Source: Clostridia bacterium (GTDB lineage Bacteria; Bacillota; Clostridia; Oscillospirales; CAG-272). Taken from it: a stretch of 64,000 nucleotides of DNA. The stretch is taken from the NCBI GenBank assembly GCA_017443595.1, contig JAFSYU010000034.1:1-64000 (forward strand), written 5' to 3'. The stretch's first letter is position 1, and the number at the start of each line of letters is the position of its first letter. Below, piece by piece: positions 19,353 through 50,636 of this stretch. Made by a program: the position numbers and the translations under genes. Below the pieces are notes generated by a model. The model had not been told where the DNA came from, ran no database searches, and saw nothing but the letters and a program-made list of their open reading frames with translations.

Positions 19353-19375
19353 GTAGTGGCGAGCATCGCTCGTCC
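19353..19375 (+). repeat. REP palindrome with GTAG head
   Basis: GTAG followed by arms GCGAGC and GCTCGT. It is the same layout as the RAYT-type REP at 50614-50636, but one base pair is swapped on both arms (CGACC/GGTCG becomes CGAGC/GCTCG), which keeps the pairing. Confidence 0.65.
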
Positions 19376-25147: not shown

Positions 25148-27634
25148 ATGAAAAAAGACGAGATGACAAACGGTTTGGGTAAATGGATAAAATGCCAAAA
25201 GTTCGACGCTGTCGTTATACCGTCGTTCCGGTGGGGGACCGGACAGAACGAACAGCATAATCCCATAGAGGACGAGGGCGGTCTCGGTATGTTCTGCCGC
25301 GAATTTGAGGTATGCGGCGTTAAAAACGCCGTTATCGACGCCACGGCTCTCGGCGTTTACGATCTTTATATAAACGGCGAACGCGTAAAAAACGGCGACG
25401 TATACGACGAGCTGAAACCCGGCTGGGAAGATTATAAAAAGCACGTGCTTTATTACTCGTACGATATAACCGACTATTTAACAGACGGCAAAAACACCGT
25501 GCTGGCCGTTACCGCGCCGGGCTGGTACGCGGGACGCATCTCTTTCGGCTCGTATCCCGACGCGGAGATATGCTTCATGGCGGGCATACATATAACAGAT
25601 AAAAATGGAAAAACAGATATTTACACGGACGAAAAATGGCTGTCTTTCAAAGGCGGCAGAATAAGAAAATCCGATATCTGGGACGGCGAATACATAGATT
25701 TCAATCAAAAATGTTTCAGATATTATTCAAGAGTCGATACGGACAGATCGGAATGGAAACCGGCTGAAACAAAAGTCTGCGAGATAGATATAACCAGACA
25801 GGTAGGCCCGGCTATACAGGTGCGCGACTTCTCCGTCGCGCCGCAGACCGTTACGGTATACGAGGGCGCAAAGGACAACGGCACGGATTTCGGTGAAATA
25901 AACGTAATATCATACTCGGACAAAGCCGATTCGTTCAAGCTCAAAAAAGGACAGGCGGCTGTCGTTGACTTCGGTCAGAACATGGTCGGCTGGCCGGTGT
26001 TCGATATAGCCGGCGCGAAGGGAACGTCGGTCATGGTGCGCTTCGGCGAGATGTTAAACGACAGCGGTGACAAAGCGCGCGGCAACGACAACCCGAAAGG
26101 TTCGATATACAGCATAAACTACCGCTCCGCAAAAGCAAAGCTGCAGTGCGTGCTCTCCGACAAACCCAAAATGCACGTTCTGCCGACGTTTACGTTCTAC
26201 GGCTTCAGATACATAGAAGTAACAGCTTCTGACGATATTGAAATATCGGCTCTTAAAGGCGCCGTCGTAGGCTCCGCGACGAAAGAGACGGGCAAAATCG
26301 AAACGTCTCACAAAAAAGTCAACAAACTCATTTCAAACATCCTCTGGGGTCAGCGCGGCAACTATCTGACCGTTCCCACGGACTGCCCGCAGCGCGACGA
26401 ACGCTTGGGCTGGACGGGCGATACGCAGATATTCTGCAATACCGCGGCGTATAACGCGGACGTTGACGGTTTCTTTAAAAAATGGCTGCGCGACGCGCGC
26501 GATTCACAGTCGCCCGAGGGTATGTATCCGGACGTCATCCCGACCGTCCGCGTCGTCGGTTTCGGAGGCGCGGCGTGGGCAGACGCGGGCATCGTCGTTC
26601 CGTACGTTATGATGAGGATGTACGACGACCGCGAGCTTGTAGCGGAGCATTACGAATCAATGGAAAAATACATGGGCTGGCTCGCATCACGCGGTATGGA
26701 AGGACCGCACCCCACGTACGGCGACTGGCTTGCGTACGAGCCCACCGACAATAAATACATAGCGCTTGCATATTACGCGCATGACGCGAAAATGATGAGC
26801 ATAATGTCGGATGCGATAGGCAAAACCGACCGCGCCGAACATTACAAAGCGCTTTATAATGAAATAAAAGCGTGCTTTGCAGACAGGTACTGTGAGGGAG
26901 GCGATCTGAAGCCGGATTACCGCACGCAGACGGGATATCTGCTCGCGCTGATGACGGATATGCTTGACGGCTCTCACAGAACGGACGCGATAAAAGCTCT
27001 GCATGACAAGATAGTAAACAACGGATATAAGCTCTCTACAGGCTTTGTAGGCGCCGGCATTTTAAACGAGATACTTGCGGAAAACGGTATGTGCGATCTT
27101 GCGTATTCTCTGCTTTTGCAGACCGCCAATCCGTCGTGGCTTTACAGCGTCGATCAGGGCGCGACGACGATATGGGAGAGATGGAATTCGTACACGATAG
27201 CGACGGGCTTCGGCGACGTGGGGATGAACTCGTTCAACCATTACGCGTACGGCGCCGTGGAAGAATGGATGTACCGTCACGTTGCGGGCATAGAAGCAGA
27301 CCCGGAAGCGTACGGATTTGAGCGCGTGATACTCCAGCCGACGCCGGACTGCAGAAAACCGGGCGAGATACCCGACGGACAGGAAAAGATAACGTGGGTA
27401 AAAGCGCACTATGACAGCAGACACGGAAAGATAGTATCAAACTGGAATACGGAAAACGGTTTCGTATACGACGCGGAAACGCCCGTACCGGCAACGCTTA
27501 AGCTGCCCGTACTGACAAGCGGCGATACGTTTACCGTAAACGGAGTGGAACACAAATTCTCTGAATTTGATATAAAAGACGGCAGAGTCATAATAACTTT
27601 AGCCCCCGGTAAATACGAATTCATACAGAAATGA
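25148..27634 (+). CDS. Alpha-L-rhamnosidase, GH78
   Basis: An 828-residue bacterial alpha-L-rhamnosidase that removes terminal rhamnose from glycosides or polysaccharides. Recognisable parts are the N-terminal beta domain with LGVYDLYINGERV and VTAPGWYAGR, the linker before VGWPVFDIAG, the (alpha/alpha)6 catalytic barrel with TDCPQRDERLGWTGDTQ near 409, and WERWNSYT with the C-terminal beta domain. No signal peptide is present, so the enzyme should act in the cytoplasm on imported oligosaccharides; no importer is in this window. RBS AAGGAG precedes the ATG. Its stop overlaps the next start (ATGA). Confidence 0.92.
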   Translation: MKKDEMTNGLGKWIKCQKFDAVVIPSFRWGTGQNEQHNPIEDEGGLGMFCREFEVCGVKNAVIDATALGVYDLYINGERVKNGDVYDELKPGWEDYKKHVLYYSYDITDYLTDGKNTVLAVTAPGWYAGRISFGSYPDAEICFMAGIHITDKNGKTDIYTDEKWLSFKGGRIRKSDIWDGEYIDFNQKCFRYYSRVDTDRSEWKPAETKVCEIDITRQVGPAIQVRDFSVAPQTVTVYEGAKDNGTDFGEINVISYSDKADSFKLKKGQAAVVDFGQNMVGWPVFDIAGAKGTSVMVRFGEMLNDSGDKARGNDNPKGSIYSINYRSAKAKLQCVLSDKPKMHVLPTFTFYGFRYIEVTASDDIEISALKGAVVGSATKETGKIETSHKKVNKLISNILWGQRGNYLTVPTDCPQRDERLGWTGDTQIFCNTAAYNADVDGFFKKWLRDARDSQSPEGMYPDVIPTVRVVGFGGAAWADAGIVVPYVMMRMYDDRELVAEHYESMEKYMGWLASRGMEGPHPTYGDWLAYEPTDNKYIALAYYAHDAKMMSIMSDAIGKTDRAEHYKALYNEIKACFADRYCEGGDLKPDYRTQTGYLLALMTDMLDGSHRTDAIKALHDKIVNNGYKLSTGFVGAGILNEILAENGMCDLAYSLLLQTANPSWLYSVDQGATTIWERWNSYTIATGFGDVGMNSFNHYAYGAVEEWMYRHVAGIEADPEAYGFERVILQPTPDCRKPGEIPDGQEKITWVKAHYDSRHGKIVSNWNTENGFVYDAETPVPATLKLPVLTSGDTFTVNGVEHKFSEFDIKDGRVIITLAPGKYEFIQK

Positions 27635-29472
27635 CAACAGAAAATAAAACAAAAAAGGATCTCTTATCAAAACTGCCCGTACCGCTTCTTATAGCCGTTA
27701 TAGCCGTTTCCGCGTCGGTGATAGTCGCCGTGCTGCTTATGGTATTTTTATCGCCGTCCGATACTCCGGTTTCGGCTGATATACGAACGGAGCAGGAAAC
27801 GGCAGAGACGGACACGGAAACACAGACCGAAACGGAAGAAGAAACGATAGAGGTAAAGGAAGAAATGCTGTTGCAGGCCGATAAATTCCCGAAAAACGAG
27901 TCAAAGGATTTTTACAAATCCGATGAAAAGCTGTTCAACCGCGCGGTGATGTATTCCGCAAACGAGCTGAAAGGCAAGTTTGACAACGTTATATTCAAGT
28001 ATGACGGACTGACGCTTCAGGACGTTACAAAAGACGGCGTATTCATATCAAACGACATAAAGCCGGGCGGCGAATTCCGGAAGCTGATAATGAGCTGGAA
28101 CGCGGATACGTCCGGCGGTACGGTAGAAGTGGAAGTCATGGCAAAACTGTCCGACGGAACGTATACGGAGCCGTATTCATGGGGCGTATGGAGCGCGATC
28201 CCCGGCGTATCCGCAAGCCGTTCACGCAAAGACGAGCACGGCGAGCTTGATATAGACACGCTCAACTTAAAAGAAAAATGCTCTGCGGTAAAGCTTAAAA
28301 TAACGCTGAAAAAGACGGCGGAAAAAGCGCCGGTGCTTTACAACGTAACTGTAGCTACGGACAGGGCTAAGCAGGAAATATCAAAGAATACCGTTACAAA
28401 AAAAATCAAGCTGAGCGTCAAAAAACGTTATCAGCTTGACGTGCCGGAAATAGGCGGCGTCATCTGCTCGCCCACGTCGCTTTCAATGGTGCGCGACTAT
28501 TACAAAGAAAAAGGTTTTGAAACGGTCGACACCGCAAAAGGAGTTTACGACAACGGCGAGGGTATTTACGGCAACTGGTCGTATAACGTCGCGTACGCGG
28601 GCGAGCTCGGATACAACGCATACGTTGATATTTACGATATGAAAGCGCTTAAATGGGCGCTGTCAAAAAACGTCCCTGTCATATGCAGCGTAAAGATCAA
28701 AAAAGGACAGCTTAAAGACTCCGGATATCCGGATTATTCAACAAACGGTCATCTGCTTTGCGTCATCGGCTACGAGACGGTCGACGGCGTTGAATGGCTG
28801 ATAGTGAACGACCCGGCTAAAAAGCAGGTGGAAGTAAAATATCTCGCATCCGAATTTGAAACGATCTGGCCCGGCACGGTCTACATAGTGCAGGAAAAGC
28901 CGGAGCGCTACACCTGGCGCATCGGCGAAGGAACGGAGCAGGATATATTAGTCGTCGCGGACTGTATACCGGAGGGCAGATACAACCGCCCCGGCGGCAA
29001 TTATAAAGTAAAATATATAGTTATCCACAACACCGGTAATTTCAGTACGGGCGCGGATGCAAATTCTCACAGATCGTACGTCAAAGAGGACGGCTGCAAG
29101 GTATCGTGGCATTATACGGTCGACGACAAGCGTATTTACAAGCATCTGCCCGAGGAAGAACGCGCGTGGCACGCCGGTGACGGACGCGAGGGCAAAGGCA
29201 ACACGTACGGCATAGGCATTGAAATGTGCGTGAACCACGAAACGCTCGGCACAAAAAACCCGACGGAATATTTCTATAAAACGATGGACAACACCGCGCA
29301 GTTAGTGGCGGAGCTTTTATATAAATACGATCTGTCGATAAAAGCCGTAAAACAGCACTGGCATTTCTCCGGCAAAAACTGCCCGCAGGTCATACGCGAA
29401 AACGACCTCTGGGAGCCGTTTTTGGAGAATATTCAGCAAAGATACGACAAGATAAAAGCCGAACGCGGGTAA
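27631..29472 (+). CDS. Membrane-anchored C39-like peptidase fused to N-acetylmuramoyl-L-alanine amidase
   Basis: A 613-residue cell-surface protein with two hydrolase domains. An uncleaved N-terminal membrane helix spans about 16-40, followed by a Thr/Glu linker and a beta-rich domain (about 80-245). Then comes a C39_2-type cysteine peptidase domain (about 265-420; C279 in GGVICSPTSLSM, H374 in NGHLL, D394 in VNDPA). The C-terminal part is an amidase_2/PGRP domain (about 440-610) with zinc and catalytic residues visible as H466 in VIHNTG, E531 in GIEM, H576/H578 and C584 in KNCPQ. It would cut peptidoglycan outside the membrane. The start overlaps the rhamnosidase stop by 4 bp and has no clear RBS, so translation is probably coupled. 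Confidence 0.87.
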   Translation: MTTENKTKKDLLSKLPVPLLIAVIAVSASVIVAVLLMVFLSPSDTPVSADIRTEQETAETDTETQTETEEETIEVKEEMLLQADKFPKNESKDFYKSDEKLFNRAVMYSANELKGKFDNVIFKYDGLTLQDVTKDGVFISNDIKPGGEFRKLIMSWNADTSGGTVEVEVMAKLSDGTYTEPYSWGVWSAIPGVSASRSRKDEHGELDIDTLNLKEKCSAVKLKITLKKTAEKAPVLYNVTVATDRAKQEISKNTVTKKIKLSVKKRYQLDVPEIGGVICSPTSLSMVRDYYKEKGFETVDTAKGVYDNGEGIYGNWSYNVAYAGELGYNAYVDIYDMKALKWALSKNVPVICSVKIKKGQLKDSGYPDYSTNGHLLCVIGYETVDGVEWLIVNDPAKKQVEVKYLASEFETIWPGTVYIVQEKPERYTWRIGEGTEQDILVVADCIPEGRYNRPGGNYKVKYIVIHNTGNFSTGADANSHRSYVKEDGCKVSWHYTVDDKRIYKHLPEEERAWHAGDGREGKGNTYGIGIEMCVNHETLGTKNPTEYFYKTMDNTAQLVAELLYKYDLSIKAVKQHWHFSGKNCPQVIRENDLWEPFLENIQQRYDKIKAERG

Positions 29473-29476
29473 CGGT

Positions 29477-29983
29477 ATGGACAATAAAGAAATACCGAAA
29501 CGAAAGAAAAACCGCTTGACCTGTTATGATTACAGCTCATGCGGAGCGTATTTTCTGACAGTCTGCACGTCAAACAGATGTAATTATTTTTGGGAAAACG
29601 ACGTTTCCTCTGAGGTAGGGGCGACCATTGGTCGCCCGTATGACGTCAAACTCTCGAAATACGGAAAAATTGCGGACAAAGCAATAAACGATATACCGTT
29701 TGTATATCCCGCGGTCAAAGTCGATCATTACGTGATCATGCCTGATCATATACATTTATTGCTTTCGATTCGCGCGGACGAAAGCGGGCGACCGATGGTC
29801 GCCCCTACGGTTTCGCGGATCGTTCAACAAATGAAATGCTGTGTTTCAAAACGCATCGGGCATCCTATATGTCAAAAATCGTTTTTTGATCACGTTATAC
29901 GAAATAAAGAGGATTATCAAAAACACGTTAAGTACATTTACGAAAATCCTTTAGCGTTATATTATGATAGGGGCGGTCACTGA
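29477..29983 (+). CDS. REP-associated tyrosine transposase (RAYT, Y1 type) with REPs inside the frame
   Basis: A 168-residue Y1 (HUH) transposase. The HUH motif is H91-I-H93 in MPDHIHLLL, the catalytic Tyr is probably Y147 in NKEDYQKH, and YIYENP closes the fold. The enzyme class nicks and joins single-stranded REP hairpins. Two surface-loop segments are encoded by REP sequence: residues 47-54 (VGATIGRP) by the plus-oriented REP at 29615-29637, and residues 104-111 (GRPMVAPT) by the inverted REP at 29786-29808. A third palindrome supplies the stop codon. The gene starts 4 bp after the amidase gene and has no promoter of its own that I can see. It appears intact. Confidence 0.9.
   Translation: MDNKEIPKRKKNRLTCYDYSSCGAYFLTVCTSNRCNYFWENDVSSEVGATIGRPYDVKLSKYGKIADKAINDIPFVYPAVKVDHYVIMPDHIHLLLSIRADESGRPMVAPTVSRIVQQMKCCVSKRIGHPICQKSFFDHVIRNKEDYQKHVKYIYENPLALYYDRGGH
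29615..29637 (+). repeat. REP palindrome inside the RAYT gene, plus orientation
   Basis: GTAG head, then arms GGGCGACCA and TGGTCGCCC around a single T (19-bp palindrome 29619-29637). It is read in frame as V-G-A-T-I-G-R-P. Confidence 0.9.
29786..29808 (-). repeat. REP palindrome inside the RAYT gene, inverted copy
   Basis: The reverse complement of the first REP with one centre change: arms GGGCGACC and GGTCGCCC, with the head read as CCCCTAC on the plus strand. It is read in frame as G-R-P-M-V-A-P-T. With the copy at 29615-29637 it forms an inverted pair around 148 bp. Confidence 0.9.
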
Positions 29984-29989
29984 CCGCCC
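29971..29989. repeat. Palindrome holding two convergent stop codons
   Basis: GGGCGGTCA-C-TGACCGCCC, nine perfect pairs around one base, with a REP-like head GATAGGGG. TGA on the plus strand (29981-29983) ends the RAYT gene. TCA (29977-29979) is the TGA of the minus-strand dockerin gene. It may also act as a terminator hairpin. Confidence 0.85.
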
Positions 29990-31188
29990 TTATAATCTTC
30001 TATCACGTATTCCCCGAAAACGTGCGCGTGGTCGAAGCAGCCGAACTGCGTTGTCGTCTGCTCCGTCACCTTTGCTATCCATTCCGTGCAGATAGACAGC
30101 TTTCCGTCGTAATCCTGACAGAATATCAAAAGTTTGTCCGGCGTTACCTTGTTTTCAAGCTTATACTCGTTTATATAATCTATGACCTGCTTGGCGAGAT
30201 CTTCGCGGATTTTTTTCATTTCAGCCGCCGTTATACCGGTCTGATAAAACTTTTTAAATCCGTTTTCCTGCAGCGTCCAGCATCCTTCCGGATATTTCGG
30301 GCTCGTACTGAATCTGCATCTGCAGTCGGTCTGTGCTCCGCCGTAACAGAATTCAAATTCCACGGTGAAATAACCGTCTTCCCATATGAATACGTATTCC
30401 AGAAGCATATCGCGCGGTATCTGCCCGAATTCGGGATATAATTCCTTCATTTTTAGATAATACTCGTCCGCTAACGCCTGCTTATCCGGTGTAAATACTG
30501 TTTTATCCGGCTTTACAAGCTCGTCGCCTGACGCCGGGACAACGACCTCAAACGGATAATCCCAACACGTATTCTCGTAAGTGTCCTCAACAAACCGTCC
30601 CTTTACGGTAAACGTCAGCACAAATCTGTATAAACCGGCGGGCGCGGTTTTTAAGAATTCGTTGATATCGTTCAGCTCCTGCCGGCTGTTATACAGCCAT
30701 GAGCTTACTTTCGTTTCCGTACCGGTGCTGTGCCAGACTATATCAAGGTCTGATCCGTCATATGACAGCACGGGGACGTTTTCGGCAATGTCGGCGCCGG
30801 GACCTTCCGCGCAGATCCAGCCTTTTATATCATCGTCATACACGGATTCTCCCACCATGTACGCGCAGGGATATACCGCGTTTTCCCCGTCAGTCACATA
30901 GAGATATACGGGATACGATCCCTCGTATATACTCCCGCCGCTTACGTATCTGAATAATGAGATCACGTCCTTGTTGTTGACTTCTCCGTCGCCGTTTATA
31001 TCGTGATCATAGCAGGATTTCGTCACGGCCTCGCTGCAGACGTGCCTGAACAGCGCCGCAACGTCCTTGTTGTTTACCTCTCCGTCGTTATTTATATCAC
31101 ACGTGCTTTTTTCCGCATAAACGTAAACGCTTGCCGTCAATGAAAATATCATTATAAACGATAGAATTATTACAATTATTCTTTTCAT
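29977..31188 (-). CDS. Secreted protein with N-terminal type I dockerin
   Basis: A 403-residue protein. A signal peptide covers about 1-25 (hydrophobic VIILSFIMIFSL, then a cut near VYA). A dockerin module follows at once, with two calcium loops, DINNDGEVNNKDV (31-43) and DINGDGEVNNKDV (63-75), each followed by a helix. The remaining 310 residues have no family I recognise; they contain about six cysteines and beta-rich stretches. The ATG at 31188 is preferred because GGGGAG lies just upstream and the signal peptide starts there. It is the third gene of an ECF sigma/anti-sigma unit, 29 bp after the anti-sigma gene, so its expression is probably under that sigma factor. Its stop lies in a REP palindrome. 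Confidence 0.82.
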   Translation of the reverse strand: MKRIIVIILSFIMIFSLTASVYVYAEKSTCDINNDGEVNNKDVAALFRHVCSEAVTKSCYDHDINGDGEVNNKDVISLFRYVSGGSIYEGSYPVYLYVTDGENAVYPCAYMVGESVYDDDIKGWICAEGPGADIAENVPVLSYDGSDLDIVWHSTGTETKVSSWLYNSRQELNDINEFLKTAPAGLYRFVLTFTVKGRFVEDTYENTCWDYPFEVVVPASGDELVKPDKTVFTPDKQALADEYYLKMKELYPEFGQIPRDMLLEYVFIWEDGYFTVEFEFCYGGAQTDCRCRFSTSPKYPEGCWTLQENGFKKFYQTGITAAEMKKIREDLAKQVIDYINEYKLENKVTPDKLLIFCQDYDGKLSICTEWIAKVTEQTTTQFGCFDHAHVFGEYVIEDYKGGQ

Positions 31189-31217
31189 TTGTTTTTCTCC
31201 CCGTAGAACTTCAAATA

Positions 31218-32369
31218 TTATTGAAAGCTGCCGAATGAAAGATTTGATAACCACAGTGAAGACCACACGTCAGGGGAGCCTTTTACTTCTACAAGTAAAT
31301 CATCGTATACGAATATCGTGCTGTTTCTGCTATCGTCTTTATATTCATATACCAATGCGGTAACTTCACGGTCGGCAAGGGTTATCGTTTGTTCGTAAAT
31401 ACTTTTATGCTGATTTCCGAGATTGTTTACATTAGGCGTGTTCGGAGAAAGTTTCCTAATTATCTCAGAAGTGGTTTTATCATTTTGATTTGCAGTTTCA
31501 TCCGGCAAATATGTGATTTTTATATAGTAGTTTTCGCCGGTTGACACGCTCGGATGACAGAATATGCAAGGCAAACCGTAAGCCTCGGACGCATATAGTG
31601 TAATATTTGCATATCCTTCTTTATTACGCAATTCTATGGGCTTACCGTTATAATACGGAACTGCATTGTTCTTTGAATTGAGTTTTTCAACAAACGCCGC
31701 GATATTCTCAAGTTGTTCGCTCGTTGCTCCCTGTTCCGAAAACTCATTTATTATATACTTTCCGTTTTGGCTGACTGCTGTTTTCAAATCCGAAAACGAA
31801 TCAAACTCAAGTGGGTATATACTCGGATTGCTTGCGTTCACCGTCGTCTCATCCGTTTCCAAATATTCATCCGTATCTACCGTTATTATTTCGGCGGTAT
31901 CATAATTGGGAGTCGTATCCTCCACCGTCTCGGTCTGCGGGTCTTCATCCTTTTCCGTATCGATTTCGATCGGATCGGTCTGCTCAACGGTATCGATCAT
32001 CTCGACTGTATCGCCCTCCGGTGTTTTCTGTTCTTCGGTCGTTTCATCCGCGGCCGTTTCCGTTACGGGCTCGTTGCCGTTAGGCGCATCTTCGGTCGTA
32101 TCTTCATCCGTGTCGGTCACAATCGCTTTATCCGTTTCACTTATCACGGGCGGCGCTTCCGTAGTCTCCGGCGGCAGCGGTATCCCGTGATTCGCATTAT
32201 TTGCGGCGGTGATAAGGATCACCGGAAGCAGCACCGCAAGCGCGGCGACGGCGGCTATGACCGCAAGTTTGAAAACCTTGCCGTTGTTTTTCTTTTTATA
32301 TACGGACGCCTCTTCTATATATTTATCGTCCGCAAGTGATATTTTATCAAGTAAATCCTTTCCTCTCAC
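31218..32369 (-). CDS. Membrane-anchored anti-sigma factor-like protein with Thr/Glu/Asp linker
   Basis: A 383-residue single-pass protein. The N-terminal cytoplasmic part of about 30 residues (GKDLLDKISLADDKYIEEA) is followed by one membrane helix (FKLAVIAAVAALAVLLPVIL). An acidic, threonine-rich linker of about 125 residues comes next, and then an external domain of about 190 residues that I do not recognise. There is no zinc-binding HxxxCxxC. The start is GTG at 32369, overlapping the sigma stop (GTGA) with GGAGGG 9 bases upstream. Gene order and topology are those of anti-sigma factors. The direct overlap implies 1:1 synthesis with the sigma factor. Confidence 0.78.
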   Translation of the reverse strand: MRGKDLLDKISLADDKYIEEASVYKKKNNGKVFKLAVIAAVAALAVLLPVILITAANNANHGIPLPPETTEAPPVISETDKAIVTDTDEDTTEDAPNGNEPVTETAADETTEEQKTPEGDTVEMIDTVEQTDPIEIDTEKDEDPQTETVEDTTPNYDTAEIITVDTDEYLETDETTVNASNPSIYPLEFDSFSDLKTAVSQNGKYIINEFSEQGATSEQLENIAAFVEKLNSKNNAVPYYNGKPIELRNKEGYANITLYASEAYGLPCIFCHPSVSTGENYYIKITYLPDETANQNDKTTSEIIRKLSPNTPNVNNLGNQHKSIYEQTITLADREVTALVYEYKDDSRNSTIFVYDDLLVEVKGSPDVWSSLWLSNLSFGSFQ

Positions 32370-50613: not shown

Positions 50614-50636
50614 GTAGGGGCGACCATCGGTCGTCC
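50614..50636 (+). repeat. REP palindrome with GTAG head
   Basis: GTAGGGG head with arms GCGACC and GGTCGT. It matches the REPs inside the RAYT gene except at the centre and one arm base that keeps a G-U pair. It lies between convergent genes, near the end of trmL. Confidence 0.8.

Follow-up and report, generated by a model that had tools for sequence, protein, structure and literature searches.

A RAYT gene with an inverted REP pair in its reading frame

We analysed an open reading frame (ORF) at positions 29477-29983 on the forward strand of a 64,000-nt window, this being the whole stretch of DNA studied, from contig JAFSYU010000034.1 (GCA_017443595.1). The ORF encodes a homologue of the REP-associated tyrosine transposases (RAYT, also termed TnpA-REP) and carries in frame, in the manner of a REPIN (REP doublet forming hairpins), an inverted pair of the repetitive extragenic palindromes (REPs) that its enzyme would be expected to recognise. 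The principal features are:

29477-29983, + strand: RAYT/TnpA-REP gene, 168 aa plus stop; matches NF047646, with profile and fold matches to 4er8
29615-29637, + strand: REP 1 (L1), GTAGGGGCGACCATTGGTCGCCC, with its GTAG tag on the outside; codes for VGATIGRP, in the beta-1/alpha-A loop that joins the first strand to the first helix
29747-29755, + strand: HUH motif, His91-Ile92-His93; invariant in the homologue alignment
29786-29808, - strand: REP 2 (L2), GTAGGGGCGACCATCGGTCGCCC, in inverted orientation; codes for GRPMVAPT, in the loop that follows the HUH strand
29933-29935, + strand: catalytic Tyr153 in a YIYENP motif; invariant in the homologue alignment

The RAYT assignment had been made in the original prediction from the sequence alone, and is borne out by several comparisons. 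The NCBIfam model NF047646 (REP-associated tyrosine transposase) matches the ORF with an E-value of 4e-17, although under its curated cut-off; a Pfam search of the protein returned no match. A 23-sequence profile recovers the E. coli TnpA-REP 4er8 (E 4.5e-12), which is also the best Foldseek match of the predicted structure (predicted local distance difference test, pLDDT, 82.5). Both elements of the HUH-Tyr core of RAYT/TnpA-REP (class 2 TnpAY1) were found, as PDHIH and YIYENP (Y-x-x-x-NP). An IS200/IS605 insertion sequence is ruled out by the presence of YIYENP rather than Y-x-x-x-Q, and by a closest paralogue in the same genome that is only 69% identical. The product is a RAYT/TnpA-REP homologue, with binding and cleavage of REPs as predicted functions. 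The WQ motif of TnpA-REPs is altered in this copy, which may be impaired as a result: codon 29870-29872, just ahead of Q133, specifies Cys where W/F is conserved, the sole case among 106 homologues scored.

Both REPs are in frame and leave the HUH motif (codons 91 and 93) and Tyr153 intact, as the original prediction had held, and REP 2 falls between His93 and Tyr153. The 24-nt arms of the pair are 96% complementary and lie 146 nt apart, with GTAG tags outermost on both copies, so that the REPIN-like arrangement in two loops of the enzyme also proved correct. The predicted REP positions stand, whereas the predicted gene end at 29989 lies 6 nt too far. The REP 1 loop (residues 43-52) is partly modelled at low confidence.

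The pair recurs in the same two loops while its sequence varies

Homologues were gathered from contigs of the genus, the family and GTDB genomes, giving 107 distinct clostridial genes with the needed motifs. Under a strict filter at least 89 of these contain a GC-rich palindrome in both loops, and several more fall just below it; a few hold one decayed REP and four have none (L136, L138, L139 and L161). The same-genome paralogue (C46:10305-10787, 69% identical) has REPs at both corresponding places. Among 86 genes we distinguished 26 stem types that vary by lineage, for example GGGCGACC, GGGCGAAC, GGGAGGGG, GGACACCC, GGAACGCCG, GGCGGGGGC and GGGTCGGCG. Loop 1 nearly always begins GTA GGG (Val-Gly) and loop 2 nearly always ends CCT AC (Pro-Thr), and the GTAG tags are therefore outermost. 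The alignment of related RAYTs that had been proposed as a check thus finds other REPs, generally those of the homologue's own genome, in the same two loops.

Five homologues (L063, L085, L141, L145 and L147) have an additional in-frame REP at the N-terminus, which in L063 coincides with a decayed loop-1 REP, as though substituting for the loop-1 copy. For a gene on a Monoglobus plasmid (L248, 1034-1399) the annotated start is probably too late, since a REP lies upstream at the expected loop-1 place.

Relatives outside the clade but within the phylum, a sample rather than a census in which ORF finding missed many loci, mostly lack the pair, their best match being at chance level (14-17 of 23); the exceptions are L218 (23/23) and L232 (19). 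There are no inserts in the E. coli and Klebsiella genes, and a Leptolinea plasmid RAYT likewise has none, its REP hairpins standing on both sides of the gene in the classical layout. Because of these comparisons the internal pair looks like a derived trait of one clade that is dispensable for the enzyme fold, and since related RAYTs lack the encoded peptides, the loops appear to tolerate them. The Monoglobus plasmid also has the internal pair, as does a faecal contig whose 'phage' status is unverified; the viral contigs searched contained no relative, and plasmids and phages few.

The palindromes are constrained at the nucleotide level

L1 agrees with the reverse complement of L2 at 23.05 of 26 nt within genes and at 14.35 of 26 between genes. 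Codon choice in the loops is strongly biased, with GTA used for Val in 92/96 cases (246/954 elsewhere) and CCT for Pro in 91/96 (139/763 elsewhere). When codons were redrawn with the loop peptides fixed, the pair was reproduced in 0 of 2000 trials in each of the 86 genes. Among genes of the 8-bp class, all four base pairs occur at stem position 11/17, yet the bases are complementary at both sites in 45 of 45 genes; the changes are compensatory, and the peptide changes in two places at once (T..G, S..A, N..V, I..D). Pair counts gave 80 double-changed cells versus 18.6 in shuffles, a test inflated by kinship among the sequences, so that the synonymous null and the strand asymmetry described below carry most weight. 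Distances between genes in L1 and L2 correlate at 0.96, compared with only 0.19-0.42 against protein segments, and on a tree built without the loops the L1 type needs at least 32 changes and the L2 type at least 26.

The original prediction had allowed that the palindromes could be ordinary conserved coding sequence, in which case homologues in genomes without such REPs would keep the same loop codons. They hold differing REPs instead, and the synonymous null, the codon bias and the residue covariation rule this explanation out. Protein-level selection for the loop peptides, of which the palindromes would be a side effect, might be suggested by the near-invariant Val-Gly and Pro-Thr at the outer loop ends. 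However, the peptides vary widely among types while the palindrome is kept, and the complete failure of the synonymous null, together with residue pairs that covary as a palindrome demands, already contradicts this explanation, which we consider scarcely credible. These sequence comparisons establish that an inverted, evidently cognate REP pair has long been maintained at the DNA level.

The imperfect pairs in the stems are informative as to strand. On the sense strand most of them read G.A or G.T in L1, and in L2 most read T.C or A.C, so that in both copies the non-Watson-Crick pairs fall on the strand bearing GTAG. In 30 of 30 distinct sequences L1 and L2 also agree in the stem base that lies behind the wobble of the lower stem (columns 21/30). 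Since the mismatches follow the GTAG strand of each copy, the constraint points to DNA rather than mRNA, and a purely mRNA-level function seems unlikely because the preference for A.C over G.U in L2 is not expected of it.

Transposase expression is known to be controlled in some cases by hairpins in the mRNA. That precedent (compare PMC8450116) lends some interest to autoregulation in which REP hairpins, L1-L2 pairing, or RAYT binding to such a structure would control expression, and the RAYT transcript does fold far better than shuffled sequences, with L1 paired to L2 (z -5.6), as follows from the two being inverted copies. In the mRNA, however, L2 is antisense, with A.C and T.C mismatches and no GTAG tag, its REP lying on the antisense strand; and TnpA-REPs studied in vitro act on the REP and do not bind the inverted form, iREP (PMC8266576). 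We therefore hold mRNA-level autoregulation to be improbable, and binding of the enzyme to hairpins of its own mRNA, one of the originally predicted routes, is the less likely form of self-recognition.

The in-gene REPs generally belong to families dispersed in the host genomes

Across the genome of origin, the REP of this gene (type A) is found at 74 places with up to 3 mismatches, a count in which palindromic sites can score on both strands, versus 0 for a reversed-pattern control; exact matches to the pattern number 22 + 7, again with a control of 0. The genome-wide count that had been proposed thus places the palindromes in the genome's own family of dispersed, GTAG-tagged REPs. Chance palindromes are ruled out by this control and by shuffling of the window, where the REP pattern has 5 matches versus 0 in 100 shuffles. 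Three types of RAYT gene are present in the genome, one as a broken copy, and each has dispersed REPs. No other recognisable gene in it contains a type-A REP; five other ORFs of at least 120 aa that overlap type-A REPs have no Pfam match and look spurious. In two places (C41:22595-22817 and C29:70193-70299) type-A REPs form direct arrays with a period of ~40 nt, in a single orientation and not as inverted pairs.

We then counted six REP types across 40 genomes, on both strands, with some sites scored twice and in-gene copies included. Genomes whose sampled RAYT carries a given type always had at least 3 matches of that type and up to 63, although for one of them (G252) the in-gene pair is deduced from match spacing only. 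The six types are mostly rare in genomes without a matching RAYT, and GGAACGCCG and GGACACCC are nearly restricted to genomes whose sampled RAYT carries the same type. Some types do occur in genomes without a matching sampled RAYT, partly because genomes hold several RAYTs.

In one rumen-type metagenome-assembled genome (G257; L166-L180) there is a family of about 14 elements resembling REPINs, whose GGACACCC ends are mostly separated by 116 nt. They are about 75-92% alike, have unique flanks and are likely to be an active or recent REPIN population. Their existence, with the same ends and the same layout, raises the idea that the HUH-strand coding segment between the in-gene REPs is itself a mobile REPIN, excised or exchanged between genes, or a source of dispersed REPINs. 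The interiors of the G257 elements, however, do not resemble the RAYT gene, any likeness being confined to the REP ends and the few bases next to them, which rules out the gene interior as their source and argues that the gene has not recently given rise to them. Swapping of segments between genes is likewise rejected, as no gene pairs combined close inner with distant outer segments or the reverse, in a test on short segments with noisy distances. The genome of origin contains no further paired type-A REPs of similar layout. A mobile segment is accordingly a very improbable explanation: the in-gene pair has the two inverted REPs and outer GTAG tags of a REPIN, but not its dispersed copies with the same interior.

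A cognate REP pair probably coupled to enzyme specificity

We consider it probable, on comparative grounds, that the REP pair inside the gene is cognate to the gene's own enzyme and locked to its specificity. This reading is favoured because at least 89 of 107 genes have the mirrored pair in the same two loops, and because both copies change together with a REP type that is generally dispersed in the host genome. Enzyme specificity would constrain both in-gene copies, which would be real recognition sites, one per strand, presented when the gene is single-stranded. With its own substrate aboard, the gene would keep enzyme and REP type linked, for example on transfer to a new host. More tentatively, the mirrored pair may be a working cis element. 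The enzyme would then recognise its own gene through one REP on each strand, which would tie its specificity to the coding loops and to the REP family of the genome, and the gene would restrain itself or, once transferred to a new host, found a REP family there.

Several observations weigh against a cognate, selected pair. In several genes stem position 11 is not the same in L1 as in L2, suggesting loose specificity there; two genomes (G258 and G007) hold hardly any REP copies beyond in-gene or gene-adjacent ones, and in another (G024) no RAYT was detected for one of the REP types. According to PMC6006769, the insert that follows the HuH strand is remote from the face that binds DNA. The same pattern could also arise without selection, by copying from genomic REPs. 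REPs may thus once have landed passively in two tolerant loops, harmless there, and been kept alike by gene conversion or renewed genomic copying. The loops are peripheral or poorly ordered in the model and missing in related RAYTs, REPs occur inside unrelated genes (PMC3733652), and L1 and L2 are alike even in loop bases and wobble state, as copying predicts. Yet the loops, frame and mirrored orientation are always the same across more than 20 REP types, decayed copies are few, and the type-A REP is absent from other recognisable genes of the genome, so that passive insertion appears unlikely.

A coupled pair would bear on two questions: what keeps RAYTs and their REPs matched, and why RAYTs persist although they do not behave like transposons. 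With enzyme and presumed substrate in one coding sequence, each gene appears to state its own specificity, and more than 20 natural enzyme-hairpin pairs could be deduced from sequence and would be directly testable. The pair is, in addition, a clear example of a protein loop whose residues are dictated by DNA structure.

Relation to known systems

The original prediction that RAYTs normally have REPs beside the gene is right for the classical layout, but REPs inside RAYT genes have a precedent. Quentin et al. 2018 (PMC6006769) report REPs in the reading frame of tnpA-REP genes of TnpAY1 subclass 2.4 (Bertels group 4). These as a rule lie between HuH and Y and are judged there to have little impact, a view of the inserts as inconsequential against which active maintenance would speak. 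As described there, subclass 2.4 shares with our clade the in-frame REP between HuH and Y, the GTAG tag and three G-C pairs at the REP foot. In our genes, by contrast, the first REP occupies the beta-1/alpha-A loop, inversion of the pair is regular, the motifs are mostly DHIH (82/111 genes) and YIxENP (YIYENP commonest) rather than NH[IFV]H and YIxNNP, and the median HuH-Y distance is 64 rather than 88. Kinship with subclass 2.4 is nonetheless likely, judging from the shared features.

Classical REPtrons (PMC2817692, PMC8266576) also have two inverted cognate REPs, with an 8-bp stem and 3-nt loop, that coevolve with the enzyme and are genome-dispersed, coevolution with flanking REPs having been argued by Nunvar et al. 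2010 (PMC2817692). There the REPs flank the gene, whereas here they lie inside the reading frame, and other clade members may have flanking REPs as well. REPINs (PMC3116915) share the inverted REPs with outermost GTAG tags, but are dispersed short units, whereas the interior here is an essential coding segment. Intragenic REPs, listed in other genes in a GTAG/CGTC repeat survey, and Rickettsia palindromic elements (PMC3733652) are likewise in-frame palindromic repeats in protein-coding genes, but there the genes are unrelated and the sites mostly differ, whereas here two fixed, mirrored sites lie in the cognate enzyme. The literature available, exclusive of supplements and subscription papers, contains no description of a fixed two-loop inverted layout with coupled turnover or active maintenance, although figure S10 of PMC6006769 may already draw part of the geometry. 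The novelty is accordingly limited: REPs inside RAYT genes have been known since 2018, and new relative to the literature available are the fixed layout, the coupled turnover and the evidence for maintenance.

Neighbouring genes and further REPs in the window

An upstream gene (27631-29472), with C39-like peptidase and amidase domains, ends 5 nt before the RAYT ORF start, and a dockerin-domain gene (29977-31266, - strand) is convergent with the RAYT ORF. A further REP, absent from the original prediction, lies at the end of the RAYT gene:

29967-29989, + strand: third, imperfect REP, ATAGGGGCGGTCACTGACCGCCC, of another stem type (GGGCGGTC); overlaps the RAYT stop codon

Two more REPs occur in the window, at 50614-50636 and 19353-19375 (both + strand), one being of type A and one having a GAGC stem (1 mismatch).
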